Below the pieces are notes generated by a model that worked only from the letters and a program-made list of their open reading frames with translations, did no database searches and was not told the DNA's origin. From the NCBI GenBank assembly GCA_009778185.1, contig WRKG01000294.1, forward strand, positions 1 to 35,507: a DNA stretch of 35,507 nucleotides, written 5' to 3'. Positions 86 through 5,712 of this stretch are shown piece by piece (within the stretch, counting starts at the first letter, position 1; each line of letters starts with the position of its first letter). Position numbers and translations under genes: made by a program. The stretch is from Bacillota bacterium (GTDB lineage Bacteria; Bacillota; Clostridia; Lachnospirales; WQUN01).

Positions 86-129
86 AATTTTTGCTCCAGT
101 CTATTTTATTTTGAATTGCCAATTTCAAA

Positions 130-186
130 ACCGTGGGGAGCGCTGCCCCCCACACCCCCCGCAAGGAGCTTCGCCCCTTGACCCGC
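130..186 (+). repeat. GC-rich two-hairpin intergenic repeat, copy R1 (short form)
   Basis: A GC-rich block in AT-rich surroundings. It starts ACCGTGGGGAG and ends with a small hairpin (CAAGGAG...CCCCTTG) and TTGACCCGC. The same ending recurs at 18330-18399, 21493-21562 (inverted) and 28713-28792. This copy lacks the 16-base palindrome CCTGCCGGCGGGCAGG (one mismatch in one copy) found inside the other three. Confidence 0.8.
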
Positions 187-305
187 TAAAATTGGTTTGG
201 TATAGTTTATTGTATCATTAATTTTGGGATTTTGCAATAAATTTTGCAATAAAAACATTCCGCTTTTTTGGGAATTTTAGCGGATTGGTAATTTTGGTAT
301 TTTCC

Positions 306-350: not shown

Positions 351-935
351 CTATTTTGTATATCTCATGTATAAATATCCAACAATATATTTTTTCATAT
401 ACCACGGAACATCCACTTTAGTAAACACGACAAAACCGAGTTTTTCGTACAATCTAATTGCAGAAGTGTTGTCGCTGGCTACTTCCAGGACGTACTCTTC
501 GAATGGCGTTGTTGCGATAATGTGGTTTATTAGGGCAAAAGCTATTCCCTGCCCACGAAAAGCGGCGGCGGTTGCGACAATTTCTATTCTGCCCATGTTT
601 GGGGCAAATTCAAACGGAAATTTATGGTTGACCAAATATTTTGTAAGCCCAAAATAAGCAAGCCGTCCACGCAAGAAACCTAATTCTTTTTGGCAGGTTA
701 ATTTGTCAAATTTTAGTGGCGAAAAGTGGCTTGTGCAAGCTGTCATTGCGGAGATTGTTGTGTCATCGTGGGCAACATAAAAATGGGAAAGGTCAAAAAT
801 ATGGGAAAACGCCGTTGCAAGCCGATTTTTATCCTTGGAGAAAATTGTTAAATGTTGCCCAAATCCGTCCACGAAAATATCGCTCATTTGCGAGCGTGGG
901 TCAAACGGTAGATTGTCGGCTTTTGTTAGGTTCAT
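351..935 (-). CDS. GNAT-family N-acetyltransferase
   Basis: A 194-residue protein whose C-terminal half carries the GNAT acetyl-CoA fold: IEIVATAAAFRGQGIA (about residues 118-132) is motif A, with the R/Q-x-x-G-x-G/A pyrophosphate loop as R127-G-Q-G130. NTSAIRLYEKLGFV near the end is the usual motif B. Such enzymes transfer acetyl from acetyl-CoA to an amine; the substrate is not evident, and the N-terminal 80 residues are not recognisable. The start at 935 overlaps the stop of the preceding small gene in an ATGA junction and has AGGAGG five bases upstream, so it is probably translationally coupled to the Rpn-tail operon. Family sure, role unknown. Confidence 0.85.
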   Translation of the reverse strand: MNLTKADNLPFDPRSQMSDIFVDGFGQHLTIFSKDKNRLATAFSHIFDLSHFYVAHDDTTISAMTACTSHFSPLKFDKLTCQKELGFLRGRLAYFGLTKYLVNHKFPFEFAPNMGRIEIVATAAAFRGQGIAFALINHIIATTPFEEYVLEVASDNTSAIRLYEKLGFVVFTKVDVPWYMKKYIVGYLYMRYTK

Positions 936-1126
936 TTTGTCCTCCTGAAGACGGTTGCTGGATTGTATTTGTTCGTTGGATTTTTGCGTTGCATATGTTG
1001 TTGTAGAAGGGCTTTTTCTTTTATTTCACGGAAAGCCTCTGCTACTGATAAACCGCTTTCTAGTAATTTTTGGATTTCGTATTCTATGTTGTAGTTAAAC
1101 TGTTTTTGGTTGTTGTTTTGTAACAT
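932..1126 (-). CDS. Stand-alone Rpn C-terminal tail-like small protein (cassette D)
   Basis: A 64-residue protein. Residues around 14-40 (YEIQKLLESGLSVAEAFREI) align with the tail of the nuclease encoded at 1917-2774 (pattern I.EL...GLSLEDAFQKVREE). It is the most divergent tail copy: the N-terminal LSFRDR segment is replaced by an Asn/Gln-rich start, and a basic C-terminus is added. SD AAGGAGA lies eight bases before the ATG, the spacing of the other cassettes. The stop overlaps the acetyltransferase start. It is probably a small helical protein; inhibition of or partnering with the nuclease is an inference from known Rpn biology. Confidence 0.65.
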   Translation of the reverse strand: MLQNNNQKQFNYNIEYEIQKLLESGLSVAEAFREIKEKALLQQHMQRKNPTNKYNPATVFRRTK

Positions 1127-1145
1127 TTTTGTTGTCTCCTTAATT

Positions 1146-1385
1146 TTATGGCTGTGAGATTGTTTGGTTGTTTTCGACGGCTAGTTTGTTGAGATATAAT
1201 GGTTTTTCTTCTCGTATTTTTTGCAGAGCATCTTCTATCGATAAGCCACTTTTTAGCAAGTTTTTAATTTCGTTGATTGTATAGTTTACTCCTTCTTCAA
1301 AACCTTTTTTGAAACCTTCTTTGAAGCCTTCATTAAAACCTTCATTAAAACCTTCATTCCAACATCTATCTCTAAAAGATAACAC
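1146..1385 (-). CDS. Stand-alone Rpn C-terminal tail-like small protein (cassette C)
   Basis: A 79-residue protein beginning LSFRDRCWNEG, followed by GF(N/K)EGFKEG-type repeats and then NLLKSGLSIEDALQKIREE, the conserved tail motif of the upstream nuclease. The GTG start is preceded by AAGGAGG with an eight-base spacer. The bases before this SD still resemble nuclease coding sequence (FK.DKEATK), but CAG has become TAG, so fusion to anything upstream is impossible while the SD and start are intact. The Gly-Glu repeats are encoded by degenerate 12-bp units. It groups with cassette A (WNEG type). Confidence 0.7.
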   Translation of the reverse strand: MLSFRDRCWNEGFNEGFNEGFKEGFKKGFEEGVNYTINEIKNLLKSGLSIEDALQKIREEKPLYLNKLAVENNQTISQP

Positions 1386-1422
1386 CTTAGTCGCCTCCTT
1401 ATCCTATTTGAACACTGCACAT

Positions 1423-1599
1423 TTAGGTAACTGGATGATTAAGCCACAATGATTTTTCTTCTTGTAATTTTTGCAAAGCATCATCTAATGACAAGCCGTT
1501 TTTAATCAATTCGGCAAGTTTGCTGGCGGATTCGTCCCAACCTTCGTTTCGCCCTTCATATCTAGCCTCTTTTCGATTCCTATCCCTAAAAGATAACAC
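1423..1599 (-). CDS. Stand-alone Rpn C-terminal tail-like small protein (cassette B)
   Basis: A 58-residue product from GTG at 1599, with AAGGAGG (1608-1614) eight bases upstream. A longer reading from GTG at 1629 is open but has no SD. It reads LSFRDRNRKEARYEG, then LAELIKNGLSLDDALQKLQEE, matching the nuclease tail. The segment 1562-1626 is identical over 65 bases to 2041-2105 inside the nuclease gene, covering the SD, the GTG and the LSFRDRNRKEA codons. This suggests recent duplication or gene conversion. Groups with the nuclease's own tail (RKEA type). Confidence 0.7.
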   Translation of the reverse strand: MLSFRDRNRKEARYEGRNEGWDESASKLAELIKNGLSLDDALQKLQEEKSLWLNHPVT

Positions 1600-1665
1600 C
1601 TTAGTCGCCTCCTTATCCTGTTTGAACACTGCAAATTTGTTTAATTATTTTCGGCAACTAGATTT

Positions 1666-1875
1666 TTAAGTTGTTACTATTGTTTCTTCTCGTATTTTTT
1701 GAAAAGCATCTTCCAGTGATAAGCCGCTTTTGAGTAATTCTTCTATTTCGCTCACTGTGTTGTGTCGCCCTTTTTTCAAGCCCTTTTTCAAGCCCTTTTT
1801 CAAGCCTTTTTCCAAGCCCTCTTCCAAACCGTCATGTCGACCTTCATTCCAATATCTATCCCTAAAAGATAACAT
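1666..1875 (-). CDS. Stand-alone Rpn C-terminal tail-like small protein (cassette A)
   Basis: A 69-residue protein from ATG at 1875 with AAGGAGG at 1884-1890 (eight-base spacer). It reads LSFRDRYWNEGRHDG, a run of EEGLEKGLKKGLKKG repeats, then EIEELLKSGLSLEDAFQKIREE. The Gly/Lys repeats come from near-identical 12-bp units. Beyond the stop, the DNA still resembles the end of the nuclease gene (CTAGTTGCCGAAAATA) but in another frame, so this copy ends earlier than its parent. Probably a short helical or coiled tail module translated alone. Confidence 0.7.
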   Translation of the reverse strand: MLSFRDRYWNEGRHDGLEEGLEKGLKKGLKKGLKKGRHNTVSEIEELLKSGLSLEDAFQKIREETIVTT

Positions 1876-1916
1876 ATTATCTGCCTCCTTATCCTGTTTG
1901 AAAACTGCACACTTGT

Positions 1917-2078
1917 TTAGCTATTTTCGGCAACTAGACTATTAAACTGTAACGAAGTCTCTTCTCGTACTTTTTGAAAAGCATCCTCTAATGATAAGCC
2001 ATTGTTAACCAATTCTTCGATTTTATTGAGTGTATCATAACTAGCCTCTTTTCGATTCCTATCCCTAAAAGATAACAC
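1917..2078 (-). CDS. Predicted intragenic tail product of the Rpn gene (internal GTG start)
   Basis: Inside the nuclease gene, AAGGAGG (2087-2093) is followed after eight bases by GTG at 2078, in frame with the gene (codon 233), giving a 53-residue C-terminal product. The same SD, spacing and start are used by the tail genes at 1875, 1599 and 1385. Known biology: E. coli rpn genes produce a small C-terminal protein from an internal start, and it counteracts the full-length nuclease. That this happens here is inferred from the translation signals alone. Confidence 0.5.
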   Translation of the reverse strand: MLSFRDRNRKEASYDTLNKIEELVNNGLSLEDAFQKVREETSLQFNSLVAENS

Positions 2079-2774
2079 CTTAGTCGCCTCCTTATCCTGT
2101 TTGAAAACCCCAAAAGTTTTGCTGAACGCTCGTGCAATTTTTCGCACATCTTTATTTTTGGGATTAGTCGTTTTTCCTAGTAAAAACTCCGCCAATTCGC
2201 CAGCGGGGCTGTTTTCTTGTGCTAGCTTTGGCAGGTTTATATATAATATGCCCGAGTTTATCGGATGTTCGTTGCCCGTTTGCTCGTCGGCTAAAATGTA
2301 GCGGGCAAATTTGTTCTCTTGTGTTACGCTTTTGACATCTTCGGCTAATAGCCATATTTGATTGGTCAATTTGCCCTTTCCGTGGACAATCCCAAGCCCC
2401 AAATAGTCAACCGAACGTATTTCTACTGGCGGATCCACGTTTGCTCGGTTTTGAAATTCTATGTAGGTTGCCAAAAAATCCTCTTCGGATAGCTTTATAT
2501 CTTGCTCGCGCGTGTCTTTCCAGTTTGTGTCCAAAAAATATTTGAACTGCGTTTGCACCTTTATTTTGCCTGTTATCGGCTTTAGCTTGCTTGTAACGCA
2601 CACTTGCAAATACGCCGCTATTAAGATGTTTATTATTAGCCGCAAAATTTCCCATTGTTCTTTTTGGTCGAAACTGTAGGCTAGAAATATGTCGTTCATT
2701 GGGAAAATTGCCTTTGGCCCGTTGGGTAAATCTACGTAACCTAGCGGTTTGGGCTTTTGTTGGTTTGGTTTCAT
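1917..2774 (-). CDS. Rpn-family / PD-(D/E)XK nuclease family transposase-like protein
   Basis: A 285-residue protein of the Rpn (recombination-promoting nuclease, YhgA-like, PDDEXK) superfamily. The N-terminal NDIFLAYSFDQKEQWEILRLIINILI is a divergent form of the usual N-D-x-x-F-K..F....I..LN block. A likely active site is D92 followed by Y-I-E106-F-Q108, the D...E-x-Q variant of PD-(D/E)xK used by this family. The tail (residues 233-285) has the LSFRDR and GLSLEDAFQKVREE motifs repeated in four downstream genes. SD AAAAGGAGC and a TTGACA/TAAAAT promoter lie just upstream. Family members cleave DNA; in E. coli they are linked to recombination and phage defence. Catalytic residue assignment is by eye. 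Confidence 0.8.
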   Translation of the reverse strand: MKPNQQKPKPLGYVDLPNGPKAIFPMNDIFLAYSFDQKEQWEILRLIINILIAAYLQVCVTSKLKPITGKIKVQTQFKYFLDTNWKDTREQDIKLSEEDFLATYIEFQNRANVDPPVEIRSVDYLGLGIVHGKGKLTNQIWLLAEDVKSVTQENKFARYILADEQTGNEHPINSGILYINLPKLAQENSPAGELAEFLLGKTTNPKNKDVRKIARAFSKTFGVFKQDKEATKVLSFRDRNRKEASYDTLNKIEELVNNGLSLEDAFQKVREETSLQFNSLVAENS

Positions 2775-2797: not shown

Positions 2798-2826
2798 ATT
2801 TTAGCTTGTTTTTTTGGGATTGTCAA
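2798..2826 (-). promoter_or_regulatory. SigA-type promoter for the Rpn operon
   Basis: On the minus strand, TTGACA (2826-2821), a 17-base spacer and TAAAAT (2803-2798) form a near-consensus vegetative promoter. The predicted transcript starts about 15-20 bases before the SD of the nuclease gene, leaving a very short leader. Confidence 0.7.
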
Positions 2827-2855: not shown

Positions 2856-3781
2856 CTAAAAAGATTTTTCGCGGACGATGTAAATTGGTCGCCGCTTGCT
2901 TTCGGTGTAGGTTTTCGCTAGATATTGTCCCAAAATGCCGATGCACAGCAAGTTTAAGCCGCCGACAAACAAAATTGTTGTCATAATGGTTGCCCAGCCC
3001 TGCACGGGATCGCCGTATAGAAGCCACCGCACAACAATAAATACGGCGCTCGCAAACGCTATAAAACACAGTAAAATCCCAAGCAAAGATGACAGCACCA
3101 ACGGCTTTACCGAAAACCCAACAATGCCGTCTAAAGAGTACGCAAAAAGTCGCCAAAAGCTCCATTTTGTGTTGCCCGCAACTCGTGGCACGTTTTCGTA
3201 ATCGATGTATTTTGTGCGAAATCCAACCCAACTAAAAAGCCCTTTGGAAAAGCGGTTGTATTCGCCCAGCGACAGCACAGCATCTACCATTTGGCGGGAC
3301 ATTAGGCGGAAATCTCGTGCGCCGTCAGCTAGTTGCGTATCGGATATTGTGTTTATTAGCGAGTAAAATCGTTTTGCGAAGAATGAACGGATTGGCGGCT
3401 CGCCTTTGCGGGTTATTCTGCGAGTTGCCACGCAATCAAAATCGCCAGTTGCCAAAATCTCGTGCATTTTGGGCAATAGATTTGGCGGATCTTGCATATC
3501 GGCATCCATTAAGGCGACAAAATCGCCAGTTGCAGAGGAAAGCCCCGCAAAAATAGCCGCCTCTTTGCCAAAATTTCTTGAGAATGACAAATATTTTATG
3601 TTGTCGGTTTTGGATAAATCCCGTAAAATAGGCAAAGTGCCGTCCTGCGAGCCGTCATCTATGAAAATGTACTCGAAGGTTACGCAATCCATTTTTGCCT
3701 GTATTTTGGCGGTTTCTTCGTAAAATATCGGAGCGATTCCTCTTCGTTGTAGCACGGGATTATTATGCTGATTTTTTGCAT
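2856..3781 (-). CDS. GtrB-like (polyprenyl-phosphate) family 2 glycosyltransferase, frameshifted
   Basis: Most of a GT2 enzyme of the GtrB/DPM1 type, which loads a sugar from a nucleotide donor onto a polyprenyl phosphate at the membrane. Visible parts: IFIDDGSQDGT, ALMDADMQDPP (the DxD metal site), a QMVDAVLSLGEYNRF acceptor-side segment, and two C-terminal transmembrane helices. The expected first 17 residues, MQKISIIIPCYNEEESL, are encoded from ATG 3781 in one frame. The rest (PIFYEETAKI...) is in another, needing one extra base near 3733-3737. The intact-frame part alone would have to start at GTG 3755 and would lack the Rossmann strand. ATG 3781 overlaps the upstream gene's stop (TAATG), which supports it as the original start. 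A real mutation or a sequence error cannot be told apart. Confidence 0.8.
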
Positions 3782-5712
3782 TATTCCACCTCCCAAACGG
3801 CGCTCCAGTTGTTGATTATGTTTTGGGAATTGCTGTTGCCACGAAAACCCTCCGCAAATCTTAGCCAAACTCTAACTTGATATTCGCCAGGTTCGGCGGG
3901 ATTAAAATATACTTGTCCTGTGTTTTCGTGGGTGCGTAAATCGGTTATTTCTTGGGGGTTGCCGTTTTCTAGCCTGTAAAATCGCCATTCGTATTCGAAG
4001 GGTAAATCGGTGGATTTTCCTGTGTGGTTGTATGTTAGCGAAAAAGTTGTTTGGTCGATTTCTTCGATTTGTTCAATGTCAACCCTGCCGAAGAAGTTGT
4101 TCATAACTACTACAACGTTGTCTATTATTGCAACCGAGCCTTCTGTTGGGTAAACTGGCATTCCTTGGGTTATTGCGGATTGTAGTAGAGCGGTTCTTTC
4201 GTTATTAGATGGACTTCGCACTTCTAATCCTATGCGATTGCGTATTACTCCTACTAGAAAACCAGCACCCCAACCAGTGATATTGTCGTTGCCAAAAACT
4301 CGTGAATCTTGGATAGTTCTTGCGGTATATTCGGTAAAATTGTTGATTGCAGGATATAGCGGATTACCTCGAAAATTATTTCCAAAAATAAAAATTGTGT
4401 TGCGGTCGCTGTAGTGCAATAATGGCTCTATGTGCAATGTTAGCCTGTTTGCTAAATTCATTATTTGCATATGTCGAGCTTGCATTGATGTATATACAAA
4501 ATTAGCGAACGCCATGTAAAAGCCTATTATAAACACGCAGGCGAAAGTGGCGAGTTTTTTTGCTCCGTAAATATTTATCTTGAAATTTTCCCATAAAATT
4601 AGCGGGAAAAACAGCAAAAATACCAAAGCGTATGTTGTCATTGTTATAAATTGAATCTCCGATGGCGGACGCAACAAGCCCGATAAATGCCCTGCAAACG
4701 GCAACAACGCAACCAACAGCACGGCAATAATTATGTTGATTACGCTTATTTGCTTGGCTTTTATTTTGGATATTACAATCAACAGCAAAGTTACAGCTAA
4801 CACAAAAAATATGAACGCATACGCCGCAATTAAATATCTGCTGTAAATAATGAAACTGCGGAAATCCACATTTGGCATACTGCTAAAAAAATAGTAGAAA
4901 ACTTCTCGGTAAACACGGAGCAGTTCGCTTGGGAGGTTTTGCAAAATTTCCATTAACGGAACATCGCTTGTAACTCTTGCGGCATTCACTTCAAAAATAA
5001 TGAGAGATATGTAATAAGCCGAAAATCCGCCGACCGCCAAAAAAATGTATCTGCAAGCGTACTTGAAAGCCGCTATAAATGGCGGATTATTTTGTAGCAC
5101 GTACAAAATAAGGTGAATAACAATCATAATTAGTGCCACGCTTACTTTTGACTGATAAACCGCTAGCGAAAGCATTAAGCACAACGAACCTAAAATAAAG
5201 CCAAATTTATAAATTTTGGTTAGGTAAAATCCCAAAGTTGCAATGAATGCACCAAAAAAATACGGTGCGGCATCGTGAAAATATAGATTCGTCTCGGTAA
5301 TATTGGGAAAAGATACTAGCAAACCCGCAATTAACAGGGCGTATATTTTGTTGTGTACTTCAAAGGCTTTTATTACGACAAATGTCATAGCCGCCAAAAA
5401 TAACATTTGCAAAACGCCCGCCATCCAATTTGGAAAATGGAAATATAGATTGGTTATGCGAGGGTGCATCCACCTGCCAGCTACTGTGGGCGATCTAGCA
5501 AACGCAGGCAAATGGATTTCTAGCAACAAATTGGCGTATATTATGTAATGCGTGGCGAATGCAATAACAGCCGCCGCCCAAAATCCCAATTTTGCCGAAG
5601 ATGGCTGATTGTTGTACCAATTTATTAGGTAATTGTTTTCTTCGAAATTGTCTGCAAAATTTTTTATCTTTTGCTTGATTTCTTTCGTTTTGTTGGTTTT
5701 TAATTTTGTCAT
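3781..5712 (-). CDS. GtrII-like multi-pass membrane glycosyltransferase
   Basis: A 643-residue integral membrane protein with about ten or more hydrophobic segments between residues 40 and 410 and an extracytoplasmic C-terminal domain rich in Asn and Glu. The early AGRWMHPRITNLYFHFPNW loop and the SLAVYQSKVSV segment are typical of the GtrII / Glucos_trans_II family, which moves a sugar from a polyprenyl-phosphate carrier onto a cell-surface polymer. The next gene, overlapping by one base, is the matching GtrB-like carrier-loading enzyme, so the pair probably decorates a wall or surface glycan. No GtrA-type flippase is visible here. Basic N-terminus (KLKTNKTKEIKQKIK). SD AAGGAGAATTTTCCA precedes the ATG. 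The sugar and acceptor are unknown. Confidence 0.7.
   Translation of the reverse strand: MTKLKTNKTKEIKQKIKNFADNFEENNYLINWYNNQPSSAKLGFWAAAVIAFATHYIIYANLLLEIHLPAFARSPTVAGRWMHPRITNLYFHFPNWMAGVLQMLFLAAMTFVVIKAFEVHNKIYALLIAGLLVSFPNITETNLYFHDAAPYFFGAFIATLGFYLTKIYKFGFILGSLCLMLSLAVYQSKVSVALIMIVIHLILYVLQNNPPFIAAFKYACRYIFLAVGGFSAYYISLIIFEVNAARVTSDVPLMEILQNLPSELLRVYREVFYYFFSSMPNVDFRSFIIYSRYLIAAYAFIFFVLAVTLLLIVISKIKAKQISVINIIIAVLLVALLPFAGHLSGLLRPPSEIQFITMTTYALVFLLFFPLILWENFKINIYGAKKLATFACVFIIGFYMAFANFVYTSMQARHMQIMNLANRLTLHIEPLLHYSDRNTIFIFGNNFRGNPLYPAINNFTEYTARTIQDSRVFGNDNITGWGAGFLVGVIRNRIGLEVRSPSNNERTALLQSAITQGMPVYPTEGSVAIIDNVVVVMNNFFGRVDIEQIEEIDQTTFSLTYNHTGKSTDLPFEYEWRFYRLENGNPQEITDLRTHENTGQVYFNPAEPGEYQVRVWLRFAEGFRGNSNSQNIINNWSAVWEVE

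Follow-up and report, generated by a model that had tools for sequence, protein, structure and literature searches.

Tandem arrays of RpnS-type tail genes downstream of Rpn-like nuclease genes in the Lachnospirales

Genes of the rpn type produce, from an internal start, the tail protein RpnS, which forms dimers and inhibits the nuclease (Zhong et al. 2023, PMC10327210). The first helix of RpnS consists of four-residue repeats in variable number, and in RpnC one added tetrad abolished inhibition unless it was carried by both partners (PMC10327210). E. coli also has a second, separate rpnS downstream of two such genes, namely rpnES (= ypaA) and rpnCS, each present as one copy with no fusion or array reported, and tandem arrays of full-length rpn genes have been described (PMC10327210). 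An initial annotation of the DNA analysed here had stated that an arrayed form of such tails was not known. Our literature search, in which few subscription papers were covered, likewise found no report of RpnS-type tail arrays; the principle and the single spare downstream copy were already known, however, and it is the arrays, that is the copy number, that are new.

The window (the whole stretch of DNA analysed, 35,507 nt of contig WRKG01000294.1, assembly GCA_009778185.1) derives from a genome whose nearest named relatives are Defluviitaleaceae MAGs, of termite-gut origin as read from the isolate names. On its reverse strand a gene for an Rpn-like nuclease is followed by four small genes, termed cassettes A to D, whose products repeat the nuclease tail (Table 1). 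The window shares with RpnL/RpnS of E. coli and C. difficile (PMC10327210) the C-terminal tail, the internal Shine-Dalgarno sequence (SD) with its start codon, the tetrads in the first helix and the hypervariable repeat number. Like rpnES and rpnCS, the cassettes are tail-only genes that follow on the nuclease gene, their beginning being marked by the SD that belongs to the internal start; in contrast to the single E. coli genes there are four of them, and their cores are far more diverged. Tandem duplication at an rpn locus is likewise common to the window and to the tandem rpn arrays, but there full-length genes were duplicated and here the tail unit without the nuclease domain.

Table 1. 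Features of the nuclease locus and the tail array; positions refer to the window.
Feature	Position	Strand	Remarks
Promoter-like TTGACA-17-TAAAAT	2798-2826	(-)	5' of the nuclease gene; 11/12 match
Rpn-like nuclease gene, 285 aa	1917-2774	(-)	D92, E106-x-Q108, R120 and Y124 align with the Rpn signature; no curated HMM match
Internal start within the nuclease gene	2076-2093	(-)	AAGGAGG, 8 nt, GTG; SD 2093-2087, in-frame GTG 2078; from sequence
Nuclease tail (putative RpnS)	1917-2078	(-)	without EG tetrads
Cassette A, 69 aa	1666-1890	(-)	SD 1890-1884, ATG 1875; ORF 1875-1666; +6 tetrads relative to nuclease tail
Cassette B, 58 aa	1423-1614	(-)	SD 1614-1608, GTG 1599; ORF 1599-1423; +2 tetrads relative to nuclease tail
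Cassette C, 79 aa	1146-1400	(-)	SD 1400-1394, GTG 1385; ORF 1385-1146; +5 tetrads relative to nuclease tail
Cassette D, 64 aa	932-1141	(-)	SD AAGGAG 1141-1136, ATG 1126; ORF 1126-932; no tetrads; start diverged, without LSFRDR
GNAT acetyltransferase gene	351-935	(-)	its ATG overlaps the cassette D stop (ATGA, 932-935)

Translation signals: All four cassettes had been credited with a near-perfect SD and an eight-base spacer. This applies to A, B and C (AAGGAGG, 8 nt); in D the SD is AAGGAG and the spacer 9 nt. ATG serves as start codon in A and D, GTG in B and C. AAGGAGG occurs at five sites on the reverse strand of the 35.5-kb window, and four of the five are the internal start of the nuclease gene and those of cassettes A, B and C. 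The internal SD and GTG of the nuclease gene, which had been overlooked, are the key link to the tail proteins made from internal starts in E. coli rpn genes, to which the annotation had rightly compared the locus; as judged from these signals, the nuclease gene probably encodes its own tail protein in the same manner. Upstream of cassette C the former reading frame has been closed by a stop codon (CAG to TAG) with SD and start intact, as had been noticed. The 5' 68 nt of cassette B are 99% identical to the nuclease gene, and cassette A has lost the final codons of the tail, the formerly coding DNA at this position now being non-coding.

Transcription: Sequences similar to the TTGACA...TAAAAT element are also found 5' of paralogues on contigs C290, C199 and C46 of the same genome. 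Terminator-like sites near the array, searched on the same strand in this part of the window, lie within the nuclease and GNAT genes in a number not above chance, and no such site was found between the cassettes. The GNAT gene stands outside the array proper and probably shares a transcript with it; the ATGA overlap suggests translational coupling from the array to this next gene. At window positions 100-190 there is a G-rich intergenic stretch (gcggggggtgtggggggcagcgctcccc) which resembles a dispersed repeat.

Identity of the nuclease: The window nuclease gave no Pfam or NCBIfam match and did not reach the cut-off of the curated Rpn models (COG5464 / TIGR01784). Seven of 17 aligned relatives match TIGR01784 somewhere in the protein (best E 8.5e-10). 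Alignment of tail-less profiles of the window subfamily and of bona fide Rpn domains with hhalign was co-linear over 177 columns with an E value of 6e-4, at a probability of only 29%, and paired D92/E106/Q108/R120/Y124 with the conserved D65/E79/Q81/R91/Y95 of Rpn; the window protein thus carries the PD-(D/E)XK-type signature D...E-x-Q...R...Y, with its residues arranged as in Rpn. The structure model was poor (mean pLDDT 47): comparison with the PDB yielded no significant match, Foldseek matches to so poor a model were meaningless, and a PDB sequence search with the nuclease profile returned nothing useful. Since no curated model was passed, the protein is called Rpn-like and not a member of Rpn. 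Unlike RpnL it appears to be a distant branch below the curated cut-offs, known here from sequence alone, and its putative nuclease function is assigned by distant profile similarity. It had also been taken for a defence nuclease, a reading which found no support: PADLOC gave no defence-system match among the 10 window proteins, so that a defence island was rejected, and no curated Rpn model was matched.

Tail similarity: The cassettes' relationship to the nuclease tail was confirmed by tblastn with the nuclease, which recovered B, A and C at E values of 1e-18, 5e-12 and 8e-12, and by shuffling: not one of 2000 shuffled versions of A, B and C, or of 5000 of D, scored as high against the nuclease tail as the real sequence. 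LSFRDR is present in A, B and C, the three tails for which it had been reported, and absent from D. For cassette C a fold of one long and two short helices was predicted (residues 4-45, 50-60 and 62-74; pLDDT 61), as described for RpnAS, and the tails as a group have the RpnS-type architecture, a first helix with a variable number of four-residue repeats followed by short helices. Matches of the tails to FliH, Yae1 and T2SSF were rejected as helical-repeat look-alikes; PDB sequence searches with the tail profile and with rpnE gave nothing useful.

Tail length: From start codon to GLS, cassettes A, B and C exceed the nuclease tail by 24, 8 and 20 residues, each a multiple of four, and D has the tetrad-free spacing of the nuclease tail. 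The repeat number of A, B and C thus differs from that of the adjacent nuclease, a difference which concerns the target and not the kind of protein. The cassettes might simply raise the dosage of cognate antitoxin for the adjacent nuclease, as the single predicted transcript, the strong SDs, the RpnS precedent and the tetrad-free spacing shared by D and the nuclease tail would allow. We consider this very improbable, given the offsets of A, B and C, the loss of RpnC inhibition on addition of one tetrad, and the finding that across the loci surveyed below most copies do not have the length of their parent, the offset mostly being a multiple of four. Under the published rule of length matching, A to C are not expected to act simply as additional cognate antitoxin. 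The initial annotation rightly described tail-only modules that have signals of their own; the mismatch in length speaks against its simplest inhibitor version, in which A to C restrain the adjacent nuclease. E. coli K-12 ypaA itself (L040, 5817-6002) exceeds rpnE, its parent, by one tetrad and would count as mismatched under the same rule.

Survey of rpn loci: The annotation had proposed a search of related rpn loci for tail-only downstream genes. A total of 196 genomes of the order were searched with TIGR01784, loci were collected together with their downstream DNA, the nucleases were clustered, and each tail was compared with the sequence 3' of its gene. This gave 143 distinct genes with a stop codon, 132 of them with at least 400 nt downstream; one of these was the E. 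coli control, which left 131 loci, and four loci with a second full-length rpn gene as the downstream match were excluded. The positive control, E. coli rpnE-ypaA, was recovered. Tail-only downstream copies were found at 20 of the 131 loci (15%), in 10 genomes. The number of independent duplication events is below 20, because some of the loci are related as paralogues or orthologues. At least two copies were present at seven loci, namely the window (four, the highest number), L023 (three), L014, L029, L094, L108 and L142. At L023 (G036:C176) three tail units, fused head to tail, form one 181-aa ORF 3' of the rpn gene that consists of tails only. A different Rpn subfamily is represented by L135 and L127 (G018), where the length offset between copy and parent is 14 or 28 residues; both values are multiples of seven, which would fit a heptad and not a tetrad as the unit of length.

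Boundaries of the copies: A strong internal SD with an in-frame start was found in the tail region of 71 of 124 rpn genes, versus 2 of 124 in an equal in-frame stretch of the body and 6 in a shifted frame. Among 20 copies that could be anchored on this start, homology ended 6-50 nt upstream of it in 19, the nuclease body there usually comprising 324-807 nt (L123 lacks a start-codon anchor, and at L094, L099, L108 and L113 homology begins inside the tail). The duplicated unit is therefore the small antitoxin gene. That its boundary falls at the internal start supports the view that selection acts on the small protein as a unit. The array is real and not a peculiarity of a single contig: arrays of RpnS-type genes, in which the internal start delimits the unit of duplication, recur at rpn loci of this order.

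Selection and decay: These boundaries bear on the possibility that the cassettes are neutral by-products, short-lived remnants of a gene 3' end which is prone to tandem duplication owing to repetitive DNA, perhaps aided by the nuclease. Decay does occur. Copies are decayed or frame-shifted at L112 and L014 (second copy), dN/dS is near neutral at L029 (0.82, copy 1 versus copy 2), L108 and L062 (about 0.6 each), tetrad numbers drift freely, and only 15% of the loci carry copies at all. Against neutrality stand, besides the location of the boundaries at the internal start, the four frames of the window, which have remained open with starts and SDs at a synonymous divergence of about 50-60% between cassettes; in a neutral simulation, from which only the open-frame probabilities were used, P for all four ORFs being open was about 0.002 at 5% and about 5.6e-6 at 10% divergence. 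Moreover, one copy has been retained in both species of the genus (C80, L014, and G036 C176, L023), with a dN/dS of 0.38 (P 0.02 against both being neutral), the tail T1 and its tail-only copy T2 on C221 differ by 9 synonymous versus 4 non-synonymous changes, and ratios indicative of purifying selection were also obtained at L123, L022, L094 and L147. We therefore regard a purely neutral origin as unlikely. A surplus of synonymous change, which had been named as support for function, was found for A-B, A-C and B-C (dN/dS 0.22-0.35); it was less marked for pairs with D (0.46-0.62), which is weakly conserved, and other copies elsewhere look neutral or are broken. Selection thus acts on some tail copies and not on all, and the low ratios and the tail divergence of the window cassettes could in part predate the cassette state, from a time when the tails belonged to nucleases.

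Arms and cores: The arms around the starts span -30 to +21 and are in part non-coding in the cassettes; within the array, copies disagree at 1-8 of these 51 sites, whereas in the cores 40-54% of third positions are different (P 0.002 to 1e-6). Relative to other loci of the same genome, the arms show 7-8 differences over 30 upstream sites. The non-coding flank after cassette A shares 50 of 55 sites with the end of the nuclease coding sequence. Near-identical arms next to diverged cores suggest recombination between the arms. Mosaic copies, in which a recent 5' part is joined to a diverged 3' part, occur at L062, L142, L112 and L113 (synonymous P <= 0.011). On these grounds the array might serve as a reservoir for tail exchange, arm recombination moving different tails onto the nuclease; as the tail is also the antitoxin, assembly and immunity would change in one step. 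Over 27 copy-parent pairs, however, the 5' part showed no reduction in synonymous divergence (Wilcoxon P 0.34), and no strain pair with an observed exchange was found, so that we hold this reservoir to be quite unlikely. A bolder version, in which recombination at the SD/start arms swaps the nuclease tail and a phage-defence toxin-antitoxin pair re-keys itself without ever being unprotected, seems slightly less probable again; if true, one tail swap would change the assembly partners and the restraining small protein together. General tail exchange by homogenisation of the 5' arms was rejected on the 27 pairs, an earlier split with uncertain boundaries having agreed.

Polymorphic toxins of the CdiA/Rhs type offer a parallel: orphan C-terminal modules are displaced downstream with a conserved joining sequence, and the toxic tips are accompanied by immunity genes. 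The likeness is one of analogy only, the displaced part there being the toxic tip and here an inhibitory or oligomerisation tail.

Proposed function: An expanded set of RpnS-type inhibitor or oligomerisation proteins of differing specificity is the best reading of the array, and one to which we give slightly better than even chances. The nuclease locus would be an Rpn-like toxin-antitoxin gene with two products, the full-length nuclease and a C-terminal tail of RpnS type from the internal start. Tandem duplication of the stretch of SD, tail and stop has produced four small genes, separate but on one predicted transcript, each encoding a predicted long helix of four-residue repeats (none in D) followed by two short helices. 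The analysis demonstrates the gene layout, the homology, the signals and the repeated occurrence of tail-only copies at other rpn loci. What lies beyond RpnS-type, length-keyed tail proteins we infer as follows: the cassette products would be made, would form dimers among themselves and with length-matched nuclease tails, and in this way would block nuclease assemblies or re-assort them. As A to C do not have the tetrad number of the adjacent nuclease, they are read as differently matched tails and not as extra doses of antidote; most likely they would act against other or changed Rpn nucleases or serve as partners in hetero-oligomers. For restraint of the adjacent nuclease, the candidates are cassette D and the product of the internal start.

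Such loci touch on two open questions, the fast variation of Rpn tails and how an antitoxin encoded inside its own toxin can change. One nuclease tail next to several separate, length-diverged tails is natural test material for whether a mismatched RpnS is inert, acts on other nucleases or feeds tail exchange, and tail-only copies are recurrent in this order (arrays of two to four at seven loci).

Related loci: In the same genome, C290 carries a close paralogue that has a long tail of EG repeats and is not followed by a further tail copy, and C46 and C199 carry two more nuclease bodies, both truncated within the same arm by the contig edge. C221 begins in this arm and carries one tail together with a tail-only copy that has an SD and a GTG of its own; an ORF resembling tyrosine integrases (L012, G000:C221, 2704-3825) lies about 2 kb from this second tail array. 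A different rpn gene with two tail-only copies is found on C217, and another with two to three, partly decayed, on C80. The only same-genus orthologue of the array nuclease, in G036, breaks off at the contig end after 48 residues. No tail copy was present downstream of the nuclease on the prophage relatives L151-L153. The window nuclease subfamily is also encoded on viral contigs (L151-L154, IMG/VR; about 2980-3880), where it is preceded by a conserved ORF of about 100 aa in L151-L153 and followed by a serine-recombinase-like ORF in L152 and L153.
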